From: Pelagibacterales bacterium SAG-MED19
GTDB lineage: Bacteria > Pseudomonadota > Alphaproteobacteria > Pelagibacterales > Pelagibacteraceae
NCBI GenBank assembly: GCA_014654035.1
Contig: JACWDQ010000010.1
Location: 1 to 45,328, forward strand
Direction of reading: 5' to 3'
DNA: 45,328 bases
Shown piece after piece: positions 25,501-34,606 of this stretch. Under the pieces are notes generated by a model that saw nothing but the letters and a program-made list of their open reading frames with translations, was not told where the DNA came from and made no database searches. The position numbers and the translations under genes were made by a program. Numbering within the stretch: position 1 is the stretch's first letter; the number at the start of each line of letters is the position of its first letter.

Positions 25501-25758
25501 ATGACTCACTTTGTTTATTTGATTATCTCAAAAACAAATAATCAAATAATATCATACGTTGGTTATACAAATAACTTACAAAAAAGACTAAAATTGCATA
25601 ATAATTCAAAAGGTGCAAAATTTACTAGAGGTAGGTTATGGGAATTAGCGTTTTATAAAGCTTATAAAACAAAATCTATTGCTTTAAAAGAGGAGTATAA
25701 ATTAAAAAAAAACTATAATTTAAGATCTAAAATTAAAAATACATTTAAAAAAAAATGA
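25501..25758 (+). CDS. GIY-YIG nuclease-domain protein
   Basis: This 85-residue single-domain protein resembles the UPF0213/YhbQ-type GIY-YIG family. The GIY-YIG strands are FVYLIISK (4-11) and YVGYTNN (about 19-25), with the conserved arginine in LQKRLKLHN and the later GAKFTRGRLWEL and ALKEEYKLKK segments containing the catalytic glutamate. It begins 2 bases after tRNA-Glu and overlaps the large glycosyltransferase gene by 4 bases. Family members have structure-specific nuclease activity in a few cases; its role here is unknown, and it is the first protein gene of the accessory region. Confidence 0.88.
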   Translation: MTHFVYLIISKTNNQIISYVGYTNNLQKRLKLHNNSKGAKFTRGRLWELAFYKAYKTKSIALKEEYKLKKNYNLRSKIKNTFKKK

Positions 25759-31986: not shown

Positions 31987-32015
31987 TTGACATTAAAAAT
32001 CACCTATTATATAAT
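31987..32015 (+). promoter_or_regulatory. Consensus sigma-70-type promoter of the recombinase gene
   Basis: TTGACA (31987-31992), a 17-base spacer and TATAAT (32010-32015) match both hexamers exactly. The expected start is around 32022, inside the inverted repeat at 32014-32042. No other exact-match promoter was seen in the window. Confidence 0.75.
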
Positions 32016-32042
32016 TTCCGATAATTAATGGTTATCGGAAAT
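32014..32042. repeat. Perfect 11-7-11 inverted repeat, candidate recombinase core site or operator
   Basis: The left arm ATTTCCGATAA (32014-32024) and right arm TTATCGGAAAT (32032-32042) are exact reverse complements around the 7-base centre TTAATGG. The geometry is like tyrosine-recombinase cores (dif 11-6-11; loxP 13-8-13), and the inner ATAA/TTAT ends resemble dif arms. It overlaps the -10 box and predicted transcript start and ends 4 bases before the recombinase ATG. It could be a recombination site, an autoregulatory operator or both. Confidence 0.7.
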
Positions 32043-32046
32043 ATTT

Positions 32047-32952
32047 ATGAATAATTTAATAACTGATGTTAAAACCCTAGAAATTGAGACTTTAAAAAAT
32101 TTAAAGAACTCAAAAGCAAGAAACACTCTAAGAGCATACCAGTCTGATTTTAAAGATTTTTCTGCTTTTTGCTCTAATAATGGATTTCCTTCATTGCCAT
32201 CACAACCAAAAATTATTGCTCTTTACATAACAAATCTCTCTAAATCTTCAAAATTCAGTACATTAAAAAGAAGAATAGCATCAATAAGTGTAATTCATAA
32301 ATTAAAAGGGCATTACTTAGACACCAAACATCCAGTAATTATGGAAAACTTACACGGAATTAAAAGAACTTTAGGTTCCAGACAAAAAGCAAAAAAACCT
32401 ATATTAATCAATGATTTAAAATTAATAATTAATGTAATTAGTGAAGAAAAAATTAGAGACAAAGCATTAATCTTACTTGGATTTGCAGGTGGATTTAGAA
32501 GATCTGAACTTGTTAACATTTATCATGAGGACATTGAATTTGTAACTGAAGGTGTAAAAATTTTAATTAAAAGGTCAAAAACAGATCAAACAGGAGAAGG
32601 AAGTATTAAGGCGATCCCCTACTTTGATAATCAAGAATTTTGTCCAGTAATATCTCTTAAAAATTATATTAATTCCAAATCAAATATTAAAAATGAAAGT
32701 AGAATTTTTGATATATCTGATAAATCAGTGGCACTTATAATAAAAAAATATGCAGAAAAAGCGGGATTAGATTCATCAAAATATGCTGGGCATAGTTTAA
32801 GATCAGGTTTTGCAACAACAGCAGCAGAATTTGGAGCTGAAGAGAGAAATATAATGGCAATGACAGGTCATAAAACAACACAAATGGTAAGAAGATATAT
32901 TCAAGATGCAAATTTATTTAAAAACAATGCATTAAATAAAATTAAAATATGA
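32047..32952 (+). CDS. Tyrosine site-specific recombinase, Cre-like layout
   Basis: This 301-residue recombinase has an N-terminal core-binding helical domain (about 10-105; ARNTLRAYQSDFKDFSAFC, LKRRIASISVIHKLKGH) and a C-terminal catalytic domain. All active-site residues are visible: Arg152 in GGFRRSEL, Lys178 in KRSKTDQ, His249-x-x-Arg252 in GHSLRSGFAT, His275 in TGHKT, and nucleophile Tyr284 in RRYIQDA. The HSLRSG and RYIQDAN sequences and overall spacing look closer to Cre and plasmid/phage integrases than to XerC/XerD. It has its own strong promoter and an adjacent 29-bp palindrome. Its stop overlaps the next glycosyltransferase start (ATGA), which is unusual for a mobile-element integrase. 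Confidence 0.9.
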   Translation: MNNLITDVKTLEIETLKNLKNSKARNTLRAYQSDFKDFSAFCSNNGFPSLPSQPKIIALYITNLSKSSKFSTLKRRIASISVIHKLKGHYLDTKHPVIMENLHGIKRTLGSRQKAKKPILINDLKLIINVISEEKIRDKALILLGFAGGFRRSELVNIYHEDIEFVTEGVKILIKRSKTDQTGEGSIKAIPYFDNQEFCPVISLKNYINSKSNIKNESRIFDISDKSVALIIKKYAEKAGLDSSKYAGHSLRSGFATTAAEFGAEERNIMAMTGHKTTQMVRRYIQDANLFKNNALNKIKI

Positions 32953-33785
32953 ATGAGATTACAATAATAATTATTACCTATAAAAGTGAAAAAATCATAT
33001 ACAATTTTATTAAAAAAATACCTTCAACGATAAAAACGGTAATAATAGAAAATTCACAAAACTATAAATTAAAAAAAAATATTGAACTAAATTACAAAAA
33101 TATATCAGTTTATATTAAAAAAAATGATGGCGTAAGTTCAGCATTAAATTTCGCTGTAGACAAAATTGAAACTAAATATTTTTTACAGATTAGTCCAGAT
33201 ATTGAATTTAATTTTAAAGATTTAGAAGTTTTTCTTAAATATACAAAAAAACTAAATGATAATTTTGCTGCCTTAGGTCCAAGATTTTTAGAAGTAAAAG
33301 AAAAAAGCCATAAACAAATTAATGAGAAAATAGAATATGGGAAAATTGACTCAATTCATGGGTCATGCATGTTAATAAATAAAGAAATCTTCGAAAAAAT
33401 AGGTAAATTTGATGATAACTTTTTTCTTTATTTTGAAGAAACAGAATATTGTTATAGAGCAAAAAAAAAGGGATACACTTCATACCAAATTAATTTGATA
33501 AAAGTTAAATCTACAGGAAGATCAGTAGAAACTGAAGATGAAGCCAAAAAAAAATTAAATAATATCTTAATCTGGCATTTTATATGGTCAAAATATTATT
33601 TTAGTTTGAAAAAGAGAGGAAAAATACTTTCTTTAATTATATTCATTCCCCTTCTAATAAGAATAATTTTGAGAATTTTAATATATAAAATTCTCAAAAA
33701 TAATATTTTATTAAACAAGTACAAATATAGACTAAAGGGTTTAATAAAGTCTATGATGGGAAAAAGTTCTGATCTGAGACCTTAA
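32949..33785 (+). CDS. Family 2 glycosyltransferase with C-terminal membrane segment
   Basis: This 278-residue GT-A enzyme resembles rhamnosyltransferase-type GT2 proteins: EITIIIITYKSEKIIYNFI at the start, NDGVSSALNFAVDKIETKYFLQ in two parts (NDGVSSALN; TKYFLQISPDIEF with the acidic motif), SIHGSCMLINKEIF and FFLYFEETEYCYRAKKKGY. A hydrophobic segment near residues 228-248 (LSLIIFIPLLIRIILRILI) followed by lysines suggests membrane attachment. It is translated from the recombinase transcript via a 4-base overlap and is convergent with the minus-strand sugar genes. Sugar specificity is unknown. Confidence 0.87.
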   Translation: MNEITIIIITYKSEKIIYNFIKKIPSTIKTVIIENSQNYKLKKNIELNYKNISVYIKKNDGVSSALNFAVDKIETKYFLQISPDIEFNFKDLEVFLKYTKKLNDNFAALGPRFLEVKEKSHKQINEKIEYGKIDSIHGSCMLINKEIFEKIGKFDDNFFLYFEETEYCYRAKKKGYTSYQINLIKVKSTGRSVETEDEAKKKLNNILIWHFIWSKYYFSLKKRGKILSLIIFIPLLIRIILRILIYKILKNNILLNKYKYRLKGLIKSMMGKSSDLRP

Positions 33786-33790
33786 ATTAA

Positions 33791-34606
33791 TTATTTTCCC
33801 CAAACTTTAAATTGAGTTGAAATTTGGTCTTTTTCAGATAAAGCAAGGTATTTTCTAGTATGTTTATCTGAAATTATTGATTTTAATTGTTTTGAGTAAC
33901 AATAAGTTTCGCTATATATCCAATTATCTTCAGTGAACTTACTACCATCGGAATTTATAACAAAAATATCAAAATTATTTTTTCTAAAATAATTTGTTAA
34001 GCTTTGTTTTCCACTCTCAATTTCCCATGCATCTTCTTTATTTTGAATTTTAATATATTTTAAATAATCAAATAATTTATCACCTTTGATTAAAAAACTT
34101 GATGTTCGTAAATGAGGATTGGGAAATATATTAAATTTTCGCTTTAGTCTCATTTTCCTAAATAAATATGAAAAAATTTTATATTTTTTTTTTAGTTTAA
34201 AAGAATCTAATAGACTTTCATTTGAAGCAGATGTTCCTATTAAGATGTTATTTCCACTATTGCTCATTAATTTTAACAACCAATTTTCACAAATGGGATA
34301 TGAATGACTATTTAAGAAAAAAATTTGTTTATCATGATACAATTCAGCAACTCTTTTGTAGGTTCCAAAATCAAAATCATTTTCATTATATGGATCAACA
34401 AAATTAATAAATTCGAGATCACTTAATTCTTTGATTATATTTGTAATTTGTTTTTGATTTAATAATTTAAAACAAATTACTAAATTATGACTAAAACCTG
34501 AATTAAATTTAAGATAATTATTTTTAAAATTAATAATAGAATCAATATTATCAAAACAAGTAAATAAATAACAGACTATAGGATTATTTTTCGTAATGAA
34601 TTTCAT
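33791..34606 (-). CDS. Glycosyltransferase-like protein, sugar cluster
   Basis: This 271-residue protein has no strong signature I can name. It starts KFITKNNPIVCYLFTCFDN, has FDFGTYKRVAELYHDKQIFF with LNSHSYPICENWLLKLM, which looks like the acceptor/donor part of a GT-A-like enzyme (an LNSH sequence where an acidic DxD would sit), and NPHLRTSSFLIKG, which is common in rhamnan-synthesis-type glycosyltransferases. Its start overlaps the end of the upstream methyltransferase gene by 4 bases (ATGA). Position and motifs support a surface-glycan role, but the assignment is tentative. Confidence 0.55.
   Translation of the reverse strand: MKFITKNNPIVCYLFTCFDNIDSIINFKNNYLKFNSGFSHNLVICFKLLNQKQITNIIKELSDLEFINFVDPYNENDFDFGTYKRVAELYHDKQIFFLNSHSYPICENWLLKLMSNSGNNILIGTSASNESLLDSFKLKKKYKIFSYLFRKMRLKRKFNIFPNPHLRTSSFLIKGDKLFDYLKYIKIQNKEDAWEIESGKQSLTNYFRKNNFDIFVINSDGSKFTEDNWIYSETYCYSKQLKSIISDKHTRKYLALSEKDQISTQFKVWGK

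Follow-up and report, generated by a model that had tools for sequence, protein, structure and literature searches.

A perfect palindrome overlaps the promoter of a tyrosine recombinase gene

The window, a stretch of 45,328 nt from Pelagibacterales bacterium SAG-MED19, carries on its plus strand a gene for a 301 aa tyrosine recombinase, proposed here to be a single Xer-type enzyme (32047..32952; PF00589, 67.8 bits; invariant catalytic residues and a Cre-like model, see below). Its promoter consists of a TTGACA -35 element (31987..31992, plus strand), assigned from the sequence and from the equidistant position of TTGAC relative to the core of the site in 144 of 144 relatives, and a TATAAT -10 element 17 bases past it (32010..32015, plus strand). 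The latter shares two bases with a perfect 11-7-11 palindrome of 29 bp, ATTTCCGATAA/TTAATGG/TTATCGGAAAT (32014..32042, plus strand), which ends 4 bases before the ATG at 32047 and which we propose as the SAR11 dif site of type A. This arrangement of palindrome, promoter and start codon, as described in the original prediction, was confirmed in the sequence. The 11-base arms put forward there are perfect in the window, but the outermost two base pairs of each arm are not kept across type A relatives, which have in common a 25-bp part, TTCCGATAA/TTAATGG/TTATCGGAA (32016..32040, plus strand). The asymmetric 7-bp centre TTAATGG (32025..32031, plus strand) is the putative crossover region. The right arm agrees at 8 of 11 positions with what we take to be the right arm of E. 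coli dif. A second copy in the same genome, a possibility raised with the original prediction, was not found: with up to 3 mismatches allowed, the palindrome is single-copy in the window's draft genome (84% complete).

The window contains three perfect inverted repeats with arms of at least 11 and centres of 3 to 12 bases. A perfect repeat as large as the palindrome is therefore nothing unusual here, and conservation was the deciding test. One of the other repeats (14-5-14, 33667-33699) lies towards the 3' end of ORF 32949-33785, by a convergent gene pair, and is perhaps a bidirectional terminator; another (12-11-12, 25515-25549) lies 5' of an ORF starting at 25755. Just upstream of the palindrome, the minus strand encodes a short methylguanine-DNA methyltransferase-type protein of 89 aa (PF01035; 31514-31783).

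The palindrome is conserved upstream of SAR11 recombinase genes

A homologue of the recombinase was found in 230 of 297 genomes of the family, nearly always in single copy, and in 111 of the 127 family genomes of good quality. The 16 good-quality genomes in which it was unmatched include G012 (99% complete) and G019 (96%), and four Pelagibacteraceae drafts of 91-99% completeness (G012, G019, G222, G260) yielded zero PF00589 proteins. Assembly gaps are the likely reason for these recombinase-free genomes; real loss or lineages without the system are also possible.

For comparison of upstream regions, complete genes with upstream sequence were collected from two sets of loci, one retrieved by protein (L002-L031, L062-L081) and the other by the site core in named genomes (L111-L228), each locus being oriented by tblastn. 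Loci were excluded when partial (8) or when they lacked a homologue (9, namely L123, L132, L143, L144, L149, L166, L190, L197 and L218; in four of these nine the stretch ends at the site). Removal of identical proteins (reducing 151 to 145) and of L147, which is not SAR11, left 144 distinct recombinases. A pattern that contains the core had served to fetch 96 of the 144 sites, so that the 48 found by protein are the set without search bias. GATAA-N7-TTATC was present upstream of the ATG in all 48 of these orthologues, whose identity to the window protein goes down to 55% with the position of the site unchanged, and in 144/144 overall. The centre read TTAATGG in 74, TTAATTG in 68 and TTTATKG in 2 cases, and thus TTAATKG in 142 of 144. 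Across the 144 loci the core ended 6-41 nt, mostly 8-13 nt, before the ATG, and TTGAC was located 31-34 bases 5' of the core in every one. Rather than being absent or varying freely beside orthologous recombinases, the palindrome thus accompanies each of them with a near-invariant centre. This linkage of site and gene supports the predicted action of the recombinase on the core site beside its own gene.

At least 118 genome stretches contain an exact 17-base core, and in 108 of those 118 the recombinase gene follows directly downstream in the same orientation; the site is at the stretch end in 4, and 6 do not fit. Exact cores in Nostoc, Aestuariicella, Ignavibacteriales, NORP194 and the SAR11 locus L149 were set aside as chance occurrences, as both the arms and a homologue were absent. 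When the 297 family genomes were searched with up to 2 mismatches, the site matched in 83 and the reversed control in 8. Among the matches listed, 11 were located away from the recombinase, all of them with 2 mismatches and unlike centres.

Two explanations that do not involve recombination bear on these data. That the palindrome is a functionless chance inverted repeat, or a transcription terminator, has a negligible probability: the window does hold two other perfect inverted repeats of like strength, but this one is kept together with its centre in 144/144 distinct upstream regions, which excludes a chance repeat, and it is located at a promoter, not behind a gene. A plain operator, at which the recombinase or some other dimeric regulator would do no more than repress transcription from the recombinase promoter, would account for the fixed spacing to TTGAC in 144/144 loci and the overlap with the -10 element, and palindromic form is common among operators. 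We nevertheless judge it very unlikely, because an operator does not need an asymmetric centre that is near-invariant (142/144 TTAATKG). Autoregulation in addition to recombination is a different matter: since the site overlaps the promoter of the gene, the bound recombinase probably limits its own expression.

Arm type changes with the recombinase

Two types of outer arms were distinguished among the 144 sites. Type A (TTCC-GATAA ... TTATC-GGAA) was found in 65 and type B (ATTACTAnn-GATAA ... TTATC-nnTAGTAAT) in 79; of 9 rows left untyped in a first pass, 8 were re-typed as A under other thresholds, the ninth being L147. The arm types correspond to recombinases of different length, 301-307 aa in 62 of the 65 type A and 317-319 aa in 78 of the 79 type B cases. 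In a quick likelihood tree the type B recombinases formed one clade (SH-aLRT 99), and arm type required 1 change on the tree, compared with a mean of 47 for shuffled labels. A recombinase site would be expected to show this pattern, in which the arms differ between recombinase types and the centre is retained. Both arm types occur within each of four genera (g1, g3, g4, g9), which suggests that gene and site have been exchanged as one module.

The recombinase is the only Xer candidate in most closed SAR11 genomes

Arg152, Lys178, His249, Arg252, His275 and Tyr284 were invariant in 42 aligned proteins, so that the R-K-H-R-H-Y signature is intact and the gene product is, as originally described, a complete tyrosine recombinase. 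In G154 and G208 the recombinase is present in two overlapping pieces covering residues ~1-141 and 133-301 (G154:C4:24912-25856; G208:C9:1339-2289), which reflects a frameshift, either genomic or from assembly. The window protein remained below every NCBIfam Xer cut-off, scoring 72 of 330 bits for XerD, 60 of 335 for XerC, 51 of 267 for XerS and 76 of 220 for XerA_Arch, and identity as an XerC, XerD or XerS equivalog was dropped on account of scores far under these cut-offs. It does match PHROG phage integrase families. An AlphaFold model (pLDDT 82.7, pTM 0.65) had Cre as nearest fold, followed by XerA and XerH; the best structural match was Tre, an engineered Cre (Z 24.1, 288 residues, rmsd 3.2), and XerH, as a match of fold alone, gave Z 17.9 over 265 residues (rmsd 3.6).

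A PF00589 search of 23 genomes, 11 of them closed, identified the recombinase as sole PF00589 protein in 8 of the 11 closed genomes; further integrases were found in closed genomes G009, G017 and G063. In none of the 12 Pelagibacteraceae tested did a XerC or XerD model score more than 83 bits. In the sister family each of the two models found two genes above 240 bits in 9/9 genomes, with best scores of 300-324 bits, just under the curated cut-offs. FtsK (PF01580) is encoded in all 12 Pelagibacteraceae, and the gamma domain (PF09397) was detected in the FtsK of the window's genome, the one FtsK scanned. This distribution would fit a loss of XerC/XerD and a takeover by one enzyme.

The site is located at the replication terminus

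GC skew was analyzed in three closed genomes (G005, G003 and G040) and, for the window's draft genome, within the window only. Cumulative skew peaked at the site in G005 and G003 when sampled as 20 x 20 kb, and in contiguous 200-kb stretches the distance from the peak to the site was 1062 bp (G005) and 2371 bp (G040). In the window the peak is at 33896, and most listed ORFs converge on 33.79 kb from either side. The site was situated 166-179 degrees from parB and 164-180 degrees from ftsK in 11/11 closed genomes. The motif GGGNAGGG, which we take to be the KOPS consensus of E. coli, points to the site 3:0 in G005 and 7:0 in G040 (100 kb each side) and 0:0 in the window; this orientation is weak evidence because G itself is skewed.

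From the conserved pairing of site and gene, the terminus position, the lack of XerC/XerD and the agreement of site type with recombinase clade, we consider it very likely that the palindrome is the dif site of a single-recombinase Xer system in SAR11 (Pelagibacteraceae), whose one Xer enzyme would be the product of the adjoining gene. Both the dif identity and the placement at the terminus come from the present analysis and were absent from the original prediction. An operator alone would leave the terminus position, the absence of XerC/XerD and the viral copies described below unexplained. In the proposed mechanism, each inverted arm would be occupied by recombinase protomers, both copies of the site on a chromosome dimer would come together at the division septum, FtsK would move DNA towards the terminus and activate the recombinase, and strand exchange across the 7-bp centre would convert the dimer into two monomers.

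Comparison with known Xer systems

The proposed system resembles XerS/difSL of streptococci and lactococci and XerH/difH of Helicobacter and Campylobacter, which, in the passages of PMC5357621 and PMC9765430 that deal with them, have one recombinase and a site beside its gene near the terminus. XerS and XerH proteins are given there as ~354-362 aa (PMC5357621), compared with 301 aa in the window, and, unlike difSL and difH, the type A arms of the SAR11 site are fully symmetric and the site lies inside the promoter. By description it can also be likened to XerL/dif of Legionella and Coxiella, where the relevant part of PMC9765430 depicts a single recombinase, long uninterrupted arms and a group first said to lack dif/Xer; the same part mentions a mobile element that uses a dif mimic (PMC9765430). 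The L. pneumophila dif and xerL are placed more than 400 kb apart (PMC9765430), whereas site and gene adjoin in SAR11.

XerC/XerD-dif of other Alphaproteobacteria shares with the SAR11 system a terminus site, a short centre and an FtsK with gamma domain, but employs two recombinases on unlike arms, whereas SAR11 has one recombinase that is below all XerC/XerD cut-offs. Cre/loxP is similar in having one recombinase, two like arms, an asymmetric centre and the closest model fold; loxP is composed of 13-bp arms and an 8-bp centre. In contrast to the putatively FtsK-activated SAR11 enzyme, Cre is a phage-plasmid protein and does not need FtsK. The SAR11 case is new in its lineage, in the placement of the site within the promoter of its recombinase, in having two specificities and in the connection to phages.

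Carnoy and Roten, in the part of their 2009 survey that concerns this species, listed Pelagibacter ubique as without dif/Xer, as an example of a small genome from which the system is absent (PMC2731167); the queries stated there were Xer proteins of E. coli and L. lactis and known dif sites (PMC2731167). Among the matches listed from the open-licence PMC literature, none described a dif site in SAR11 or its use by pelagiphages. If the dif reading is true, streamlining in SAR11 would have replaced dif/Xer rather than removed it, SAR11 genomes would gain a terminus marker, and a recombination system would have been described that needs one enzyme, is as simple as loxP and comes in two natural specificities.

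Copies of the site on viral contigs

The exact type A pattern TTCCGATAA-N7-TTATCGGAA was present in at least 120 IMG/VR stretches and its reversed pattern in 2; the type B pattern was found in 30 and its reversed pattern in 0. Among the 163 viral loci examined, thirteen have a gene whose product is homologous to the recombinase at 29-42% identity, and a type A site lies at most ~0.5 kb upstream of every such gene. By their centres these thirteen fall into 6 kinds, and as most of them are GC-rich, most are not SAR11 phages. On one phage-like contig with terminase and portal-like ORFs (L378:6514-7561), a 42% identical recombinase is preceded by a type A site ~9 bases before the ATG, a layout that matches that of site and gene in SAR11.

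In viral loci without a recombinase, TTAA was kept at one end of the centre in 54 of 94 distinct type A sites while the other half varied; ~3 were expected and the maximum in 500 simulations was 11, with the caveat that related phages are not independent. Such one-sided conservation on viral copies fits a crossover region. On fifteen viral contigs A- and B-like sites lie 29-40 bases apart. Dif-like sites of types A and B, some of them in tandem and some with 6-base centres, lie beside terminase genes in pelagiphage isolates and viral contigs (L302:35412, L304:22465, L305:34320-34377, and viral loci that include L084, L087, L092, L097-L100, L102 and L109).

Two viral contigs, L109 and a portion of L099, can be partly aligned with Pelagibacter phage isolates, at ~67-73% identity. 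With centres of 5-8 bases allowed, clear sites were found in 3 of 6 isolate genomes, all intergenic beside the terminase gene and all with 6-base centres: type B without mismatch in Greip, type B with 1 mismatch in HTVC100P, and type A with 1 mismatch in HTVC106P. HTVC010P, HTVC034P and Lederberg contain at best degenerate sites hardly or not above the reversed control, and a plain mismatch search of the six isolates with 7-base centres was no better than in shuffled sequence. PF00589 was detected in 0 of 25 phage records, 19 of which are contigs of 4-17 kb and likely fragments. A second site was found in 0 of 138 host loci (132 with one, 6 with none), loci of at most 8 kb that are too short to hold a ~35 kb prophage.

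The presence of site copies on viral stretches, including pelagiphage fragments without a recognisable integrase, suggests exploitation of Xer, and use of the host Xer by pelagiphages is plausible. With a centre that is homologous mainly on one side, and with sites that are sometimes paired, the viral copies recall IMEX phages (integrative elements exploiting Xer) such as CTXphi (PMC5357621). Unlike phages of the CTXphi type, pelagiphages are tailed double-stranded DNA phages, and some of their sites have 6-base centres. If the dif reading is true, the possible entry of integrase-free pelagiphages into the chromosome becomes directly testable.

Relatives outside SAR11 and a possible origin of the system

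With the L147 member as query, a search of 240 genomes of the class yielded relatives of 26-40% identity in 15, of which 3 belong to Pelagibacteraceae. A GATAA/TTATC-type inverted repeat was present near the gene in 8 of 14 non-SAR11 loci examined (L147, L320, L323, L324, L325, L326, L328 and L329, that of L326 being weak). Seven of the genomes bearing a relative (G358, G390, G502, G516, G526, G554 and G481) also contain a gene scoring 313-359 bits with the XerD model, and six of the seven have a second XerD-model gene at 216-250 bits. We infer from these data an accessory or mobile recombinase family that was adopted by SAR11.

Some observations speak for a further alternative, namely that the gene is the integrase of a mobile element resident near the terminus by happenstance, or of its remnant, and the palindrome the attachment site: viral contigs hold family members whose genes are accompanied by the same arms, accessory members reside in genomes that also have XerC/XerD-like genes, and phage integrase PHROGs match. 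A mobile element would hardly be expected, however, as one gene in nearly every genome that has it (and in 111/127 good genomes), antipodal to parB in 11/11 closed genomes, with no other Xer in 8/11 of these and no second site in the 138 host loci of up to 8 kb, and we assign this explanation a similarly low probability as the plain operator.

Starting from the identification of the palindrome as dif, a more far-reaching scenario can be offered tentatively, as somewhat less probable than its opposite. SAR11 may have swapped XerC/XerD for a member of a recombinase family associated with phages or elements, acquiring along with it an att-like palindrome that now serves as dif, and integrase-free tailed pelagiphages may enter the chromosome at dif by means of this Xer. 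Tandem A and B sites would then serve hosts of either type, and the host A/B split, with both types within one genus, would represent exchange of the Xer-dif module under that pressure. SAR11 bacteria are among the most abundant cell types of the ocean, and if this reading of capture and phage exploitation is true, lysogeny without an integrase would be possible in abundant ocean viruses.

Among the non-SAR11 loci, the repeat was found 3' of the gene in both genomes of one genus. On the Acetobacteraceae metagenome contig L147 (3052-4198) the relative is flanked by the ScpA and ScpB genes, one on each side, and is accompanied by a perfect 13-7-13 palindrome, which shares the centre of the SAR11 site but has it in inverted orientation with respect to the gene.
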